Part shown: positions 32,022-40,473 of the stretch, piece after piece
Numbering within the stretch: position 1 is the stretch's first letter
Layout: each line of letters begins with the position of its first letter
NCBI GenBank assembly: GCA_019114445.1
Contig: DXFL01000023.1
Coordinates: 124,001 to 188,000 of the forward strand
DNA: 64,000 nt
Source of the DNA: Candidatus Barnesiella excrementigallinarum
GTDB lineage: Bacteria; Bacteroidota; Bacteroidia; Bacteroidales; Barnesiellaceae
Direction: 5' to 3'
Notes under the pieces: generated by a model
What the model saw: the letters and a program-made list of their open reading frames with translations, nothing else
Database searches by the model: none
Told to the model about the DNA's origin: nothing
Made by a program: the position numbers and the translations under genes

Positions 32022-32191
32022 CATTTTATTTTCTCAATCCCAGCTATACTTTCGGGATGCTACAAGGTATCGCACAACTTAATCAAGTTGCAATCATACA
32101 GTTATAACGAGGGTTGACTTTCATTTATTATTGAAAACCGGGGGTTGAAAAAGCAAATTAAAACAATCTGCTTATTTTTTCTTTCAAATCA
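32022..32191. other. divergent intergenic region between tamL and the ilv operon
   Basis: About 170 bp with no gene. One small inverted repeat (CAACTT-AATC-AAGTTG, 32075-32090) lies between the two promoters and might be an operator; there is no further evidence. Confidence 0.35.
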
Positions 32192-32223
32192 TTTGTTTAT
32201 ATCACAAAATAGTTATACATTTG
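32192..32223 (+). promoter_or_regulatory. ilv operon promoter (-33 TTTG, -7 TACATTTG)
   Basis: TTTG at 32192-32195, a 20-bp spacer and TACATTTG at 32216-32223 together match the Bacteroidetes -33/-7 promoter with ideal spacing. Transcription should begin near 32230, about 17 nt before the leader peptide ATG. Confidence 0.8.
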
Positions 32224-32246
32224 CAACAACATAAAAAAGCAAGTAT

Positions 32247-32315
32247 ATGAACACTATGTTGCTACACGTGATTTCTCTATCGGTCATTAGCGAGCTTATT
32301 GTCGTGAGTCGATAA
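32247..32315 (+). CDS. ilv leader peptide (attenuator control peptide)
   Basis: 22 codons, reading MNTMLLHVISLSVISELIVV then SR and TAA. Eleven of 22 residues are branched-chain (four Leu, three Ile, four Val), including consecutive pairs L5-L6, V8-I9, V13-I14 and the run L17-I18-V19-V20. It starts about 17 nt after the predicted transcription start and stops one base before the antiterminator arm. This is the arrangement expected of a control peptide whose translation senses charged tRNA-Leu, -Ile and -Val. It is too short for routine gene finders. It acts in cis; the peptide itself probably has no function. Confidence 0.85.
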   Translation: MNTMLLHVISLSVISELIVVSR

Positions 32316-32316
32316 G

Positions 32317-32404
32317 GCGGAAAGGCGTATGTAGTTACTTCTCATGGAATATAAATTAGAGTAATTGAAAAACCTTTCCGCAAAAACGGAAAGGTTTTTC
32401 TTTT
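32317..32404 (+). promoter_or_regulatory. ilv attenuator: mutually exclusive antiterminator and terminator
   Basis: The terminator is a perfect 14-bp stem (32367-32380 with 32387-32400) with a six-base loop and a following TTTT. The nine bases GCGGAAAGG at 32317-32325, two bases after the leader stop codon, can pair with CCTTTCCGC at 32373-32381. That would remove the terminator's 5' arm. A ribosome that finishes the leader peptide covers 32317-32325 and lets the terminator form. A ribosome stalled at Leu/Ile/Val codons leaves it free to antiterminate. The mechanism is inferred from geometry. Confidence 0.82.
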
Positions 32405-32426
32405 GAAAGATAGCGTAAAAAGAATT

Positions 32427-34253
32427 ATGGAACATCAATTACGAAGCGAGACGAGTACACAAGGCCGAAGAATGGCAGGGGCAAGAGCCCTTTGGCGCGC
32501 CAACGGCATGAAACCCGAGCAAATAGGCCGCCCCATCATCGCCATTGTCAATTCATTCACTCAATTTGTACCCGGTCACGTACATCTGCACGAAATAGGA
32601 CAAACCGTAAAAAGAGAAATCGAGAAACTGGGGTGTTTCGCCGCCGAATTCAACACGATCGCCATCGACGACGGCATAGCTATGGGGCACGACGGAATGC
32701 TCTATTCGCTTCCCTCGCGCGACCTCATCGCCGACAGCGTGGAATATATGGTCAATGCCCACAAGGCCGACGCTATGGTATGTATAAGCAACTGCGACAA
32801 AATTACGCCGGGAATGCTCATGGCTGCCATGCGGCTGAATATCCCTACGATTTTCGTATCGGGCGGTCCTATGGAAGCCGGTCATCTGAATGGCCGAGGG
32901 CTCGACTTGATCGACGCCATGGTCGAATCGGCCGACGATAGTATCGACGACGAACAGGTTCGACAAGTAGAATATGCAGCGTGCCCCACGTGCGGCTCCT
33001 GTTCGGGAATGTTTACGGCCAACTCGATGAACTGCCTCAACGAAGCTATCGGGCTGGCTCTGCCCGGCAACGGTACCATCGTGGCGACCCATCGCAACCG
33101 CGAACAACTCTTTATCGACGCTGCCCGCCAAATCGTAGAAAACAGCTATGCCTACTATCGCGACGGCGACGAAAGCGTTTTGCCCCGCAGCATAGCCACC
33201 CGGGCAGCCTTCCTCAACGCCATGACACTCGACATCGCTATGGGAGGATCGACCAACACGGTGCTTCACCTGCTTGCCATAGCCCAAGAAGCCGGCGTCG
33301 ACTTCACCATACGCGACATCGATATGCTCTCGCGCAAATCGCCGGTGCTTTGCAAAGTCGCCCCCAACTCACATTTCCACATACAAGAGGTAAATCGGGC
33401 GGGAGGCATACTCTCCATCTTAGCCATATTGGCCAAAGAGGGACTGCTCGACACCTCGGTTCACCGGGTCGATCGCCGCTCCCTTGCCGAGGCCATCGAA
33501 CAATACGCCATTAATAATGGCGTTTGCCCCGCCCAAGCCGAACGGCTGTGGAAAAGCGCTCCGGGCAACCGCTTCAACCTTGTTATGGGTTCGCAAGAGA
33601 ATTATTACGACGCCCTCGACACCGACCGCAGCGAAGGGTGCATTCGCGACTTCGACCACGCCTACGTAAAAGATGGCGGGCTGGCGGTACTCTTCGGGAA
33701 CATTGCCCAAGACGGTTGTATTGTCAAAACCGCCGGAGTGGACGAAAAGATTTTCCGATTCAAAGGGCGAGCCAAAGTATTCGAGTCGCAAGAAGAGGCT
33801 TGCGAAGGCATACTCGGCGGGAAAGTAGAGAGCGGCGACGTGGTCGTTATCATCTACGAAGGTCCTAAGGGAGGCCCCGGTATGCAAGAGATGCTCTACC
33901 CCACCTCCTACATCAAATCGAAACATCTCGGCAAAGCGTGCGCCCTCATCACCGACGGCCGATTCTCAGGAGGGACATCGGGACTTTCCATCGGACACAT
34001 CTCGCCCGAAGCCGCTGCCGGAGGCAACATAGGATTGGTACGCGATGGCGACCTCATCGAAATAGATATTCCCAACCGTCGTATCGAACTGCTTATCGAC
34101 GAACAGGAGATGAACAACCGTCGAGCCGAAGAGGAGAGCCGGGGCAACAAAGCCTTCACTCCCAAACAGAGGGACCGAAACATATCGAAAGCACTCCAAG
34201 CCTATGCGGCGATGGTAAGTTCGGCCGACAAAGGAGCAGTGCGCATCATCTAA
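32427..34253 (+). CDS. ilvD: dihydroxy-acid dehydratase
   Basis: 608 residues. Fe-S enzyme that dehydrates 2,3-dihydroxy-isovalerate and -methylvalerate to the keto acids of valine and isoleucine. Cluster-binding cysteines are in SNCDKITPG and [11 protein letters not shown]. The start is set at the ATG at 32427 ([20 protein letters not shown]), which matches the family N-terminus. An in-frame TTG at 32403 would start inside the terminator's T-run and is rejected. First structural gene after the attenuator, 16 bp before ilvB. Confidence 0.96.
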
Positions 34254-34269
34254 ATTCTACGGAACAACT

Positions 34270-35979
34270 ATGGCAACAGAAAAGATAAAAGGAGCCGAAG
34301 CGCTCATCAGATCGCTTATCGCAGAAAATACAGAGTATATCTTCGGATACCCGGGCGGAGCCATCATGCCCGTATTCGACGTACTTTACGACTATCGCGA
34401 CAAACTGAAACACATTCTCGTACGGCACGAACAGGGAGCCACACACGCCGCTCAGGGATATGCCCGGGTATCGGGCAAAACGGGCGTAGTCATGGTCACC
34501 TCGGGACCGGCGGCAACCAATATCATCACCGGACTTTCCGACGCCATGATGGACAGTACCCCGCTTATCGTCATCACCGGGCAGGTATCCTCCCCGTTAC
34601 TGGGCTCCGACGCTTTTCAGGAGACCGACGTCGTAGGCATTACCCAACCGGTAACGAAATGGAGCTACCAAATACGGCACAGCGACGAAATCGCTTGGGC
34701 GGTGGCTCGCGCTTTCTACATCGCCGGAAACGGGCGCCCGGGTCCTGTGGTTCTCGACATCGCCAAAGACGCCCAAACGGGATTCACCGATTTTGAATAC
34801 AATCCCTGCCAATTCATACGCAGCTACAATCCCTATCCCGATGTAAAACCGGCCGAAATCGACGCAGCCGCCCGCCTCATTAACCAAGCGAAAAAGCCCT
34901 TTATTCTTGCCGGGCAGGGTGTAGTTATTTCGAATGCCGAAAGAGAGTTGGCCGAACTGGCCGAGAAAGCCGACATTCCGGTAGGATGCACTTTGCTGGG
35001 ATTATCGGCCATGCCCACCGACCACCCGCTCTACAAAGGAATGCTGGGGATGCACGGCAGCATAGCCTCCAACATCAAAACCAACGAATGCGACCTGCTT
35101 ATCGCCATTGGTATGCGATTCGACGACCGGGTAACCGGTGATGTCGAACAATATGCCCGCCAAGCCCAAATCATTCACATCGACATTGACCCCTCGGAGT
35201 TTAACAAAAACGTGAAATGCGACGTCTCGGTATTGGGCGATGCTCGTACCGTATTGCAAGCGTTGAACAAAGAAATTGCCCCGGCCAAGCACGAAGCGTG
35301 GATAGCCTCGTTTGCCGAATGCGAAAAGGTGGAGCAGGAAAAGGTAATCGAGCCCGAATTACACCCGCAAAAAACGCTCATGAATATGGGCGAAGTGGTC
35401 CGTAAAATATCCGACGCCACCGACAACGACAGCATTTTGGTAACCGACGTGGGACAAAACCAAATGCTCTCGGCACGATACTACCGGTTCAAACAGTCGC
35501 GCAGCATTGTCACCTCAGGAGGGTTGGGAACTATGGGATTCGGACTCCCCGCGGCCATCGGCGCCAAGATAGGCCGTCCCGACCGCACCGTATGTTTCTT
35601 CACCGGGGACGGCGGCATACAGATGACCATACAGGAGTTGGGCACTATCATGCAATATGGTATCGACGTAAAAATTATTGTTCTCAACAACAATTTCTTG
35701 GGAATGGTACGGCAATGGCAGGCGCTGTTTTTCGACCATCGGTATTCCGAGACTCCTATGCTCAACCCCGATTTTACCGGTATCGCCGCAGCCTACGGCA
35801 TAGCCGGCGAACGGGTAGCTACCCGCGAAGAGTTCGACGCCGCCATACAACGAATGCTCCACCATCGGGGAGCCTACCTGCTCGACGTACAGATAGACCC
35901 CGAGTGCATGGTATTCCCCATGACCCCTGCCGGAGCCTGTGTTACAAACATCATGCTCAATGCCACCGAAAAATATTAA
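34270..35979 (+). CDS. ilvB: acetolactate synthase large (catalytic) subunit
   Basis: 569 residues, full length. ThDP enzyme joining two pyruvates, or pyruvate and 2-oxobutyrate. The catalytic Glu lies in VRHEQGATHAAQGYAR. The central FAD-binding domain is present, and the ThDP motif runs from GDGGIQMTIQE to LNNNFLGM. It lies 6 bp before the small-subunit gene, with which it forms the holoenzyme. Confidence 0.97.
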   Translation: MATEKIKGAEALIRSLIAENTEYIFGYPGGAIMPVFDVLYDYRDKLKHILVRHEQGATHAAQGYARVSGKTGVVMVTSGPAATNIITGLSDAMMDSTPLIVITGQVSSPLLGSDAFQETDVVGITQPVTKWSYQIRHSDEIAWAVARAFYIAGNGRPGPVVLDIAKDAQTGFTDFEYNPCQFIRSYNPYPDVKPAEIDAAARLINQAKKPFILAGQGVVISNAERELAELAEKADIPVGCTLLGLSAMPTDHPLYKGMLGMHGSIASNIKTNECDLLIAIGMRFDDRVTGDVEQYARQAQIIHIDIDPSEFNKNVKCDVSVLGDARTVLQALNKEIAPAKHEAWIASFAECEKVEQEKVIEPELHPQKTLMNMGEVVRKISDATDNDSILVTDVGQNQMLSARYYRFKQSRSIVTSGGLGTMGFGLPAAIGAKIGRPDRTVCFFTGDGGIQMTIQELGTIMQYGIDVKIIVLNNNFLGMVRQWQALFFDHRYSETPMLNPDFTGIAAAYGIAGERVATREEFDAAIQRMLHHRGAYLLDVQIDPECMVFPMTPAGACVTNIMLNATEKY

Positions 35980-35985
35980 ACCGAT

Positions 35986-36531
35986 ATGACTGACAAGACA
36001 TTATATACCGTAACCGTTTATTCCGAGAATCAGGTTGGTTTGCTCAACCAAATCTCGATTATCTTTACCCGTCGGCAGCTCAACATCGAGAGCCTGTCGG
36101 TATCGGCCTCGGCCATCGAAGGTGTACACAAATTTACCATCACCACTTACAGCGACCGGGAGACGATGGAGAAACTGGTAAAACAGATCGAAAAACGAAT
36201 CGACGTGCTGCGTGCATTTTTCTATACCGACGACGAAATCGTATTCCAAGAGGTTGCCCTCTACAAAGTCCCTACCGACAAACTTTTGGACGACAGGCAT
36301 ATCGAAGATCTGGTACGAAAATACAACGCCCGCATATTGGAAGTAAACCGCACTTATACGGTTATCGAAAAATCGGGTCACACCGACGAAACACAAGCTC
36401 TATTCGAGGAATTGAGCCGGTACGACGTCATGCAGTTCGTACGGTCGGGGCGAGTGGCCATTACCAAATCGACCGTAGAGCACGTGAGTATCTTTTTGGA
36501 AGAACAGCAATACCGTCAAAACCAGCTATGA
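35986..36531 (+). CDS. ilvN: acetolactate synthase small (regulatory) subunit
   Basis: 181 residues. An N-terminal ACT domain (about 4-75: LYTVTVYSENQVGLLNQISI, RRQLNIESLSV) normally binds valine for feedback inhibition. A C-terminal ALS-SS domain follows. The length matches the long (IlvH-like) form. Its stop overlaps the thioesterase ATG by 4 bp. Confidence 0.95.
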   Translation: MTDKTLYTVTVYSENQVGLLNQISIIFTRRQLNIESLSVSASAIEGVHKFTITTYSDRETMEKLVKQIEKRIDVLRAFFYTDDEIVFQEVALYKVPTDKLLDDRHIEDLVRKYNARILEVNRTYTVIEKSGHTDETQALFEELSRYDVMQFVRSGRVAITKSTVEHVSIFLEEQQYRQNQL

Positions 36532-37292
36532 GAGGAGACGAAGAATATCCGGGACAATCGACCGTGGCAATCTACGCCAAAAGCTACACCGTAGAACCTG
36601 CCGAGGGTAACGGCCAACAAGAACTGCCGCTGCCTTTACTCGCCAAAAGGATTCTCGAAGTAGCAACCCTCCACGCCGAATCGTGGGGCGTAGGATACCG
36701 CACGCTCATCAAAAGCGGGCAGGTATGGGTACTCTCCCGATTGGCTGTCGAAATGAACCGGTATCCCCGTATCAACGAACACTATACCTTAGAAACTTGG
36801 ATAGAGGGATATAACAAACACTTCTCCTCCCGTAATTTCGCCATATCGGGCGAAGACGGTACACCCTGCGGATATGCCCGCACCATTTGGTCGGTCATCG
36901 ATTTGAATACCCGTTCGTCGGTCGATATAAGTCAGTTTGAATACATCGCCCGCAACATATCGGACAAGCCTTGTCCCATCGAGAAACAATCGCGGGTACG
37001 CGACGTCCACGACGAAAGTCCGGCAGTTTACCACGTTGCCTACAACGACATCGACCTGAACCGCCACGTCAATAGCGTGAAGTATATCGAACATCTGCTC
37101 GATCTTTTCCCCTTCGAACAATACGACCGCCAACGGGTGCGCCGGTTCGAAATAGGATATGCCCACGAAGCTCGTTACGACGCTATCCTGCAACTGCTCA
37201 AAGAGGAGGAGTCGCCCGATAACTTCGCATTGGAAATACGCGACAACGAAAAAATCTATTGCAAAGGACGAATTATTTTTGAAAACAGATAA
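36528..37292 (+). CDS. acyl-ACP thioesterase family protein inside the ilv operon
   Basis: 254 residues. It looks like a double hot-dog acyl-ACP thioesterase related to plant FatA/FatB. The motif DIDLNRHVNSVKYIEHLLD has the Asn/His typical of the second hot-dog, and the first hot-dog contains RINEHYTLETWI. These enzymes release fatty acids from acyl carrier protein. The gene overlaps ilvN by 4 bp and precedes ilvC by 32 bp, so it should be attenuated along with the ilv genes. A link to branched-chain fatty-acid or lipid supply is inference. The exact chain-length specificity cannot be read. Confidence 0.88.
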   Translation: MRGDEEYPGQSTVAIYAKSYTVEPAEGNGQQELPLPLLAKRILEVATLHAESWGVGYRTLIKSGQVWVLSRLAVEMNRYPRINEHYTLETWIEGYNKHFSSRNFAISGEDGTPCGYARTIWSVIDLNTRSSVDISQFEYIARNISDKPCPIEKQSRVRDVHDESPAVYHVAYNDIDLNRHVNSVKYIEHLLDLFPFEQYDRQRVRRFEIGYAHEARYDAILQLLKEEESPDNFALEIRDNEKIYCKGRIIFENR

Positions 37293-37324
37293 AACTAATT
37301 TTATAAACTCTAAACAACAAAAAA

Positions 37325-38371
37325 ATGGCTATCATGAATTTTGGCGGAGTTGACGAAAACGTAGTCACCCGAGAAGAATTTCCTTTGGAAAAAGCAAGAG
37401 AAATACTCAAAAACGAAACCATCGCCGTTATCGGTTATGGCGTACAAGGTCCCGGACAAAGCATGAACCTGCGCGACAACGGTTTCAACGTAATCGTAGG
37501 CCAACGCAAAAACTCCAAAACTTGGGACAAAGCGGTAGCCGACGGTTGGGTACCCGGCGAAACACTCTTCGAAATCGAAGAGGCTTGCCAACGGGGTACA
37601 ATCATCGAATACCTGCTTTCCGACGCCGCACAAATAGAGGTATGGCCCACAGTGAAAAAACACCTCACCGCAGGCAAAACGCTCTATTTCTCGCACGGTT
37701 TCGCCATCACTTATAAAGAGCGCACAGGCATTGTTCCTCCCGCCGACGTCGATGTAGTATTGGTTGCCCCCAAAGGTTCGGGAACCAGCTTGCGCCGTAT
37801 GTTCCTGCAAGGACGCGGGCTTAATTCGAGCTATGCAGTCTTCCAAGATGCGACCGGGCACGCCACAGAAAAAGTTTTGGCATTGGGTATCGGCGTAGGT
37901 TCGGGATACCTCTTCGAAACTACCTTCAAACGCGAAGTTTACTCCGACCTTACCGGCGAACGCGGTACTTTGATGGGAGCCATTCAAGGTATCTTTGCCG
38001 CCCAATACGACACCTTGCGTGCACACGGCCACAGCCCCTCGGAAGCCTTTAACGAAACCATCGAAGAGCTTACCCAATCGCTCATGCCGCTCGTAGCCGA
38101 AAACGGTATGGACTGGATGTATGCCAACTGCTCGACCACCGCTCAACGGGGTGCCCTCGACTGGTGGAAGAAATTCCGCGACGCTACCAAACCGGTATTC
38201 GAAGAACTGTACGACGAAGTTGCCAAAGGCAACGAAGCTCAACGCTCTATCGACACCAACAGCAAAGAGGGTTATCGCGATGGCTTGAACCAAGAGCTGA
38301 AAGAGATGCGCGAGAGCGAAATGTGGCAAGCCGGTGTTACGGTGCGCAAACTACGCCCCGAAAACAATTAA
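37325..38371 (+). CDS. ilvC: ketol-acid reductoisomerase, resembling the fungal Ilv5 type
   Basis: 348 residues. NADPH-dependent isomeroreductase acting on acetolactate and acetohydroxybutyrate. The Rossmann start is AVIGYGVQGPGQSMNLRDNG, with the cofactor loop GQRKNSKTW. Catalytic segments include SHGF and GERGTLMGAIQG. Blocks such as GHSPSEAFNET, CSTTAQRGALDW and the ending VRKLRPEN match, from memory, yeast mitochondrial Ilv5 more closely than the short bacterial class I enzymes. It is the last gene of the operon, followed by a strong terminator. Confidence 0.95.
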   Translation: MAIMNFGGVDENVVTREEFPLEKAREILKNETIAVIGYGVQGPGQSMNLRDNGFNVIVGQRKNSKTWDKAVADGWVPGETLFEIEEACQRGTIIEYLLSDAAQIEVWPTVKKHLTAGKTLYFSHGFAITYKERTGIVPPADVDVVLVAPKGSGTSLRRMFLQGRGLNSSYAVFQDATGHATEKVLALGIGVGSGYLFETTFKREVYSDLTGERGTLMGAIQGIFAAQYDTLRAHGHSPSEAFNETIEELTQSLMPLVAENGMDWMYANCSTTAQRGALDWWKKFRDATKPVFEELYDEVAKGNEAQRSIDTNSKEGYRDGLNQELKEMRESEMWQAGVTVRKLRPENN

Positions 38372-38562: not shown

Positions 38563-40473
38563 ATGAAAAAAAATCTACTTGCCCTACTGTGTCTGATTCA
38601 GGTCACGGTGATAAGTCTTGCTCAACCTTTGATGATAGGACACCGAGGCAGCTATTGGGGTGTGGAAAACACCGCCGAAGCCTTTATCAACGGCGCACAA
38701 GCCGGTTACAACGGATTGGAATGCGATATAAAGGTAACCGCCGATGGAGTTTATGTAATCTCGCACGACGATAATTTGTCCCGACTGGGGCACTCGGTTT
38801 CGATCGAATCCTCTACCCTCGCCGCTCTCAAAGAGCTCGAACTGAGCCAAACACGGGGCGGCGTAACCTACACCGGCCACATCTGCACCGTAGCCGAATA
38901 TTTGGACATCTGCAACCAATACGACTGTTTCCCGGTTATCGAATTGAAATGGAGCGCAGGCATACACTCCAACGACGCCGGCAACAACGATTTCTCGAAA
39001 ATTCCGGGGCTCATCGAGCTTGTCCGGGAAAAGGGTCTTGCCGAAAAGGCCGTCATATTGTCGTCGATGAAAGGTTGTTTGGAATACATTCGAACCAACT
39101 ATCCCGAAATACAAATCCAATTCCTCACCGGCCAATATTGGGCCAACCATTTCGACTGGTGCGTGCAACAAGGATTCGACGTAGATATAGAGATAGGCTA
39201 TTTCGACGAATCGACGGTAAAGAAATTCCACGATGCCGGATTGAAAGTGAATGTATGGACCATCAACTCGGAGAGCAATTTCCTCACCTACTACGACTAC
39301 GGGTGCGATATGATTACAACCGACTACTTCAAATTGTCGGACATCACGGCCGACATATCGGTGGGAATCTCTACCCTTTGGTCGAAACGGAAGAGCGAAC
39401 TCTCGTTTCTCGCCACCGAGGGACAAAGCGCCATGGGGGTTTACAACGGCAAACTCTATATCCCCAACTACGAAACACAACGGATCACCGTCGTCAATGG
39501 CGAAGATGGTTCGTTTGTCGAAGAGTTAAGCACCGACCTGCCGAGCGGTAAAATAACCGGCATATCCATTACCGAAGATGGTGTCTTGCTCTTGGGCGGC
39601 ACCAATGGCGGAAGCGATATGTTCTACATTGCCCGCTGCGACCTCACAACGGGCGAAACCTTGCAAAGTTTCGCCATTCCCGTTCCGGGACTGGGCGAAG
39701 CCAACTACATGGCTACCATCGGCTCTTTTCTGTCGAGCGAAGGCGGTTATTTAGCCACTGCCAGCAATTCGGGGAAAGCAGCCATCATTCCGTTTGCCAA
39801 CGGCGCATTCGGCGAGGCAAAAGTCATTCCGGGACACGGGGTTACAGCATTGGCCTCGCAAGCCGTCATCAAAGACCGAAATTCTTTCTTCATTACCGGA
39901 CAATCGGTATCACGCAAGTTATACAACCTCGAAGGCGAAGTGATTGCCCAATTCGGCGAAAACAAACCCTCGACAATGGCATCAAGTGCAATCTGTTTCA
40001 CTTTGGGCGGAAAAGAGATATTCATTTCGGCCGAAAACAAAGTTGGCATACTCAAAACCTTCAACATCACCAACGGGGTAGAACAGGCTACGGTCGTGGG
40101 AAATACCACCTCGGCAATGGGACGGGGGGCCAATGACAACCTCACCACCCCGCTGTGCGTAGAGTATGTAGACGACTACGCTATCGTCTATTTGCTGGCA
40201 CCCAACAACGGAATGGCCGCCTACAAAATCTATACCCGGGGAAATTCGGAATTGTCGGTCCCGACGGGGGAATCGCTACAAATCTTCGCCTACAACGGCA
40301 ACATATACATACGGGGTGTCGAAGTGGGCGAACCCATAACAATATTCGACCTCACTGGACGAATCTTGATAAGTACGACGGCACAACGAGAGAGTATCAT
40401 GCTGAACCTGTCGTTCCCCCAACAAACCGTAATTGTAACAACGCGCAAAAAGGCGGTAAAAGTGAGATTGTAA
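38563..40473 (+). CDS. secreted glycerophosphodiester phosphodiesterase fused to a propeller-like domain and T9SS tail
   Basis: 636 residues. A signal peptide ends near SLAQ. Residues about 23-265 are a GDPD-type TIM barrel: the start IGHRGSYWGVENTAEAF carries H27-R28 and E35, followed by ECDIKVTADGVYVISHDD with the second catalytic His. Residues about 275-555 form repeated beta-blades of a propeller-like domain (VYNGKLYIPNYETQRITVV, TGISITEDGVLLLGG). The last about 80 residues fit a T9SS sorting domain. GDPD enzymes split glycerophosphodiesters to glycerol-3-phosphate. Export by T9SS suggests it works on host or shed phospholipid headgroups at the surface. Confidence 0.85.
   Translation: MKKNLLALLCLIQVTVISLAQPLMIGHRGSYWGVENTAEAFINGAQAGYNGLECDIKVTADGVYVISHDDNLSRLGHSVSIESSTLAALKELELSQTRGGVTYTGHICTVAEYLDICNQYDCFPVIELKWSAGIHSNDAGNNDFSKIPGLIELVREKGLAEKAVILSSMKGCLEYIRTNYPEIQIQFLTGQYWANHFDWCVQQGFDVDIEIGYFDESTVKKFHDAGLKVNVWTINSESNFLTYYDYGCDMITTDYFKLSDITADISVGISTLWSKRKSELSFLATEGQSAMGVYNGKLYIPNYETQRITVVNGEDGSFVEELSTDLPSGKITGISITEDGVLLLGGTNGGSDMFYIARCDLTTGETLQSFAIPVPGLGEANYMATIGSFLSSEGGYLATASNSGKAAIIPFANGAFGEAKVIPGHGVTALASQAVIKDRNSFFITGQSVSRKLYNLEGEVIAQFGENKPSTMASSAICFTLGGKEIFISAENKVGILKTFNITNGVEQATVVGNTTSAMGRGANDNLTTPLCVEYVDDYAIVYLLAPNNGMAAYKIYTRGNSELSVPTGESLQIFAYNGNIYIRGVEVGEPITIFDLTGRILISTTAQRESIMLNLSFPQQTVIVTTRKKAVKVRL

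Follow-up and report, generated by a model that had tools for sequence, protein, structure and literature searches.

The window analyzed here, a 64,000-nucleotide stretch of the genome of Candidatus Barnesiella excrementigallinarum (Bacteroidales), holds a presumed ilv operon preceded by a short open reading frame (ORF) rich in Leu, Ile and Val codons and by a predicted terminator. This arrangement raises the question of whether translation of the ORF decides if the operon is transcribed. Textbooks describe attenuation of this kind for the ilv operons of enterobacteria. The mechanism is not new, and examples from Bacteroidota have been published; yet in Bacteroidales the switch, common as it is, has hardly been described. 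A comparative survey of attenuation made in 2010 by Lopatovskaya and colleagues may include ilv cases from Bacteroidetes.

The first gene past the terminator is ilvD (32427-34253), which matches NF009103 and TIGR00110 above cut-off. The remainder of the presumed operon (34270-38371) comprises ilvB, ilvN, an acyl-ACP thioesterase gene (TE) and ilvC, the thioesterase gene lying at 36528-37292, between ilvN and ilvC. These features, and all others of the window described below, are on the + strand.

Organization of the ilvD Leader Region

The region opens with a -33 promoter element, TTTG (32192-32195), separated by a 20-nt spacer from a -7 element, TACATTTG (32216-32223), of the form TAnnTTTG. 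Both fit the Bacteroidetes-type promoter consensus. Among relatives, the 80 nt ahead of the leader start contain TAnnTTTG in 67/78 loci, against 68/1560 mononucleotide shuffles, and TTTG stands 19-21 nt ahead of the -7 element in 28/78 loci. The leader peptide ORF follows at 32247-32315 (ATG at 32247, TAA at 32313-32315) and encodes MNTMLLHVISLSVISELIVVSR; half of its 22 codons specify branched-chain residues (4 Leu, 3 Ile and 4 Val).

Just past the stop codon lies a nine-base segment, arm A (GCGGAAAGG, 32317-32325), and between the leader ORF and ilvD the sequence predicts an intrinsic terminator (32367-32400) in which TTTT comes after a perfect 14-bp stem. The segment 32373-32381 is shared, forming part of the terminator 5' side and the 3' side of a putative antiterminator with arm A. 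An inner imperfect helix (32332-32367), in which 32332-32345 pairs with 32355-32367, would prolong the nine base pairs of the antiterminator. Both structures are more stable than shuffled sequences: -20.7 kcal/mol (z -7.0) for the terminator segment and -21.5 kcal/mol (z -4.7) for the antiterminator segment 32316-32386, with 0/200 shuffles equally stable in either case. Judged by the 9-bp complementarity, the alternative folds and the covariation reported below, the two are mutually exclusive. Only four T follow the full terminator stem, the U-run being partly contained in the A-U base of the stem (CGGAAAGG-TTTTTC-TTTTG), and a generic terminator scan did not list the 32367-32400 terminator. 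A sequence-only reading of this DNA had placed the promoter, the 22-codon ORF with its 11 control codons, the nine-base arm and the 14-bp terminator, and had claimed that the arm is complementary to the terminator 5' side; every position proved correct to the base, and the complementarity to 32373-32381 extends over 9/9 bases.

A known RNA family was also sought in 32150-32450. The 17 Rfam hits at E <=10 include none at gathering score, the top sub-threshold hit being rnk_leader (27.7 bits, against 50).

Distribution of the Module

We assembled 207 ilvD loci: the window's own, 80 from named contigs, 8 from congeners, and 26 plus 92 from an order sample of 294 genomes, 131 of which have an ilvD match (the sample gave 26 loci, then 92 further upstream stretches). 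From the order sample each genome contributed a single locus, whose match had to be strong and to cover the N-terminus; second copies, paralogues and other partial matches were excluded. Of the total, 200 were placed by tblastn (7 dropped) and 197 have at least 180 nt upstream (3 dropped). A module was scored when an ORF with at least 6 and at least 36% Leu/Ile/Val codons was followed 20-130 nt on by a terminator, with a stop-proximal segment complementary to the terminator 5' arm.

With imperfect stems allowed, leader, terminator and arm occur together in 108/197 ilvD upstream regions, a few of which look doubtful (L065, L190), against 1/394 dinucleotide shuffles and 0/197 reverse strands. 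A stricter detector that accepts perfect stems finds the module in 65/197 regions, against 0/591 shuffles and 0/197 reverse strands. It is present in 75/120 loci from the own genome, the congeners and the order sample, and in 33/77 named-contig loci, other phyla among them; by manually transferred family labels, 32/45 families have at least one module. All 9 genomes of the window's genus carry it. Loss of the leader ORF or of the arm complementarity in close relatives, which the sequence-only reading had named as refuting its interpretation, was not seen, both being kept in 8/8 congeners. ORF content scored without structure gives 121/197 regions at a score of at least 5, with 4/197 reverse strands and 34/591 mononucleotide shuffles, and is weaker evidence than the full module.

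The remaining 89/197 regions fail the detector, and inspection of three families (f26, f39 and f104; 8 loci) revealed no convincing leader ORF; thus, the element is not universal in Bacteroidales. Elsewhere among the failing families an ORF can be seen, and the other parts of the module may have escaped the detector. Outside the order, 22 loci from other orders of the class, with distant IlvD proteins (33-39% identity), yielded 2/22 modules by the same criterion, their last control codons lying 13 and 14 nt from the arm. Two complete modules stand in series ahead of ilvD in 3/193 loci (L167, L178 and L180). In L180 both leader peptides are almost identical, which suggests that this double module arose by duplication.

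Covariation of the Arms

Since the module detector itself selects for pairing, we made a separate test in which the ORF and the terminator were picked blind to pairing, over 81 non-redundant loci. The stop-proximal segment scores a mean of 11.38 with the terminator arm of its own locus and 7.99 with swapped arms, and 0/2000 permutations reach the own value. A control segment within the ORF displays no effect (own 5.77, swapped 5.76).

The sequences of the arms vary widely (GCGGAAAGG, GAAGAAAGG, GTGAGAAAGG, TGAGAATGGT, CCGGGAAGTT, GGAGGGCTG and others), and those of the terminator arms change along with them. A compensated change is found even within the genus, where the window has GCGGAAAGG:CCTTTCCGC and its congeners GTGGAAAGG:CCTTTCCAC; the second arm position is a C-G pair in the former and U-A in the latter.

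Spacing between Control Codons and Arm

For profiles of the leaders, the 108 sequences were reduced to 80 non-redundant ones (<60% identical), in which Leu, Ile and Val make up 56% of the residues. Counted back from the arm, the Leu/Ile/Val fraction is 0.88, 0.79, 0.84, 0.91, 0.94 and 0.79 at codons -10 to -5, and then falls to 0.39, 0.16 and 0.09 at codons -4, -3 and -2. Measured from the arm, the edge keeps its place at -5/-4 in leaders that have the arm after (21 leaders), at (44) or before (15) the stop codon. Relative to the stop it shifts, from -3/-2 where the arm comes after and -5/-4 where the arm is at the stop to a gradual fall over -11 to -6 where the arm comes before. In these profiles, then, the edge of the control codons tracks the arm and not the stop codon. 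Because the arm is itself purine-rich, its composition could contribute to the low fractions where it begins and further on; it does not account for the drop at codons -4 to -2.

Measured from its first base, the last Leu/Ile/Val codon stands a median of 13 nt ahead of the arm, and in the window this codon, GTG at 32304, lies exactly 13 nt before it. The edge is a statistical one, with distances of 12-18 nt in 53/80 leaders and shorter ones in 27/80. In E. coli toeprints the stretch covered by the ribosome, counted from the start of the A-site codon, measures ~12-13 nt. With such a footprint and a 13-nt spacing, a ribosome waiting in the control-codon block would just free the arm, and a ribosome at the stop would cover it; the agreement here is one of geometry. 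Such spacing would not be expected of a peptide with its own function or of an RNA that binds a ligand, and for this reason we regard it as the strongest evidence for the mechanism.

A Predicted Protector Helix

In the minimum free energy fold of the nascent RNA up to 32345, leader codons (32262-32293) form the 5' side of a predicted protector helix whose 3' side (32299-32334) includes the arm. Over 80 leaders the mean pairing of the arm with the leader is 0.752, against 0.566 when codons are permuted and 0.61 upon synonymous replacement, and the native leader falls in the better half of its controls in 70/80 (permuted) and 66/80 (synonymous) cases. The effect was smaller (0.647 against 0.556) in an initial test confined to a shorter stretch. 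In the window alone the predicted helix buries the arm, but the excess over its own shuffles is not significant (ranks 0.36 and 0.66). The sequence-only reading had described the layout as simpler than that of E. coli. Because the arm pairs with leader codons above the shuffled controls, this description is probably wrong for the group, whose attenuators would have a layout no simpler than the E. coli one.

Leaders Upstream of Other Amino Acid Operons

Similar leaders precede hisG and leuA, with weaker evidence for the arms. In the window's own genome, hisG is preceded by a leader with a run of His residues, MTTLFLHHHHVHSFFPKGR (G000:C25, ~39504-39563; L237), and then a terminator. ORFs with at least 3 His stand ahead of hisG in 9/9 genomes of the genus, 6/9 of which pass the module detector. 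In the order sample, where 42 genomes have a hisG match, 30 of these supplied a locus and 26/30 loci could be counted (4 being too short), such ORFs are found in 22/26 loci, against 2/26 on the reverse strand. The hisG antiterminator is less clear, given that just 7 of the 18 order loci with an ORF and a terminator reach the arm score and that own arms (8.5, against 6.95 for swapped arms) exceed the swapped mean in just 12/18.

A leuA match was obtained in 8/9 genomes of the genus, the own genome having none. Upstream of it, a leader such as MTISLLNNLIIIIDLLSNSPDEK can be read by eye in all 8 congeners; the scripted ORF scan listed 1/8, and 4/8 pass the module detector. Spacing differs between operons, the last His being 10-21 nt before the arm in his leaders and the corresponding distance 23 nt in leu leaders.

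In the window's own genome and some relatives, a Thr-rich ORF that ends in TTP before the stop, or in TTPWGV, lies ahead of thrA (G000:C4 ~326491-326559, L270, L279; also L280, L282, L293 and L305). Around the stop of these leaders, CCACCCC could pair with GGGGG to give a hairpin, and the sequence beyond it is T-rich. Their geometry is unlike that of ilv, since this hairpin extends over the stop and the final Thr codons. A test of Thr counts is passed by 5/29 order loci, and by 1 on the reverse strand.

For tryptophan, the Bacteroid-trp motif RF01692, which we take to be a Trp-codon leader attenuator, is named for trp and not for branched-chain operons, and has no match in the tested loci, none of which is a trp locus. 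The N-terminal domain of anthranilate synthase (PF04715; trpE) was found in none of the 9 genomes of the window's genus, which suggests that this genus may lack the usual pathway of tryptophan synthesis.

Taken together with ilv, these leaders lead us to favor slightly the reading that attenuation is a general control of amino acid biosynthesis (ilv, leu, his and perhaps thr) in Bacteroidales and probably in other Bacteroidota, sometimes with two modules in series. That just 7/18 his loci pass the arm test lowers the probability of this reading.

Proposed Mechanism and Alternatives

We conclude that the ilvD-ilvB-ilvN-TE-ilvC operon is very probably controlled by an amino-acid-specific, ribosome-mediated transcription attenuator. 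RNA polymerase would start near 32230, followed by a ribosome that translates the leader ORF. With an ample supply of charged Val, Leu and Ile tRNAs, the ribosome would reach the stop codon and cover arm A, leaving 32373-32381 free for the terminator, so that the transcript would end after about 175 nt. Uncharged tRNA would instead stall the ribosome with a Leu, Ile or Val codon in the A site, at least 13 nt before the arm; the exposed arm could then pair with 32373-32381, the terminator would be blocked and the operon would be transcribed. If the leader is not translated, it would probably sequester the arm and favor termination. The sequence-only reading had proposed antitermination upon stalling at Leu/Ile/Val codons and termination at the stop, and had pointed to related Bacteroidales as the place to look. 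Sequence comparison bears this out, as the module recurs upstream of ilvD with covarying arms and a block of control codons at a footprint-sized distance from the arm.

The same RNA geometry would be expected if the ribosome were arrested by a specific nascent peptide or a bound ligand and not by starvation for charged tRNA. The 80 peptides, however, are <60% identical and yet have composition and spacing in common, and the enriched amino acid differs by operon, which makes arrest of this kind highly improbable. That the ORF instead encodes a small hydrophobic membrane peptide with a function of its own, the terminator and complementarity being incidental, is scarcely credible: Leu/Ile/Val-rich peptides are able to span a membrane and the ORF is conserved in the genus, but the control codons are positioned by their distance to the arm and not to the stop, the terminator arms covary with the stop-proximal segment, the peptides diverge, and the ORFs ahead of hisG are rich in His. 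Control of the terminator by a riboswitch, T-box or protein-binding leader, with the ORF secondary, would share the anatomy of an alternative helix and a terminator, but has next to no plausibility, as no Rfam family matches at gathering score at the region or at 20 loci including the window's own, and codon-to-arm spacing is meaningless without ribosomes.

The attenuator proposed here would explain how branched-chain amino acid synthesis is adjusted to supply.

Relation to Known Attenuators and Significance

The ilvGMEDA and ilvBN attenuators of E. coli likewise have a leader rich in Leu, Ile and Val, an antiterminator opposed to a terminator, termination with the ribosome at the stop and a probable protector helix. 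The Bacteroidales element differs in having no Rfam match, another operon order and a shorter peptide, in that its arm often overlaps the stop codon, and in the occasional presence of serial modules. The ilvBNC attenuator of Corynebacterium glutamicum (PMC11857589, PMC10272879) also combines a leader ORF ahead of a branched-chain operon with attenuation, but belongs to another phylum and has another operon order. Closer in phylogeny, "strong clues" for leader-peptide attenuation ahead of amino acid operons are described for Flavobacterium psychrophilum (PMC9723704); these candidates belong to the same phylum but to another order, and the relevant passage contains no ilv case or anatomy. Further sources mention short ORFs of Bacteroides thetaiotaomicron that are "reminiscent of leader peptides" (PMC7366714), the Bacteroidetes cis-regulatory motif Bacteroid-trp, RF01692, named for trp (Weinberg 2010, PMC2864571), and the comparative survey of attenuation in bacteria by Lopatovskaya et al. 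2010 (cited in PMC4833913). Passages of PMC6429828 and PMC8305728 do not mention ilv leaders of Bacteroidales. The literature searched, partly in excerpts and with most subscription papers outside it, yielded no account of an ilv attenuator from this order. The mechanism being old, what deserves attention is its breadth, the spacing rule and the coupling that it implies in Bacteroidales.

Leader-peptide attenuation needs a ribosome close behind RNA polymerase. To our knowledge, transcription-translation coupling has been little studied in Bacteroidales, and Bacteroidota start translation largely without Shine-Dalgarno pairing. Since attenuation works only with a ribosome near the polymerase, the retention of such a switch in many families of Bacteroidales, a dominant gut order, argues indirectly that transcription and translation are coupled there. 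If attenuation is indeed a general control of amino acid biosynthesis, close coupling of polymerase and ribosome would be required in a phylum largely without Shine-Dalgarno starts, and the leaders would record the leading edge of the ribosome as a spacing rule. The spacing amounts to a quantitative prediction, namely that stalls at least 13 nt before the arm give read-through, and nearer stalls less.

Codon Choice in the Leaders

Codon choice in the leaders differs from that in the ilvD genes themselves (34 loci), with fractions of 0.45 against 0.17 for Val GTC, 0.21 against 0.03 for Leu CTA and 0.72 against 0.38 for Ile ATT. Pairing of the RNA or sensitivity to tRNA charging may account for this bias. 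Branched-chain leaders repeatedly show a Leu codon followed by one for His (CTA CAY), among them those of the window (32262-32267) and several relatives. The basal pairs of the predicted protector helix include those between the CTAC of the window and GTAG (32331-32334), and the His of the leader may thus be a by-product of RNA structure.
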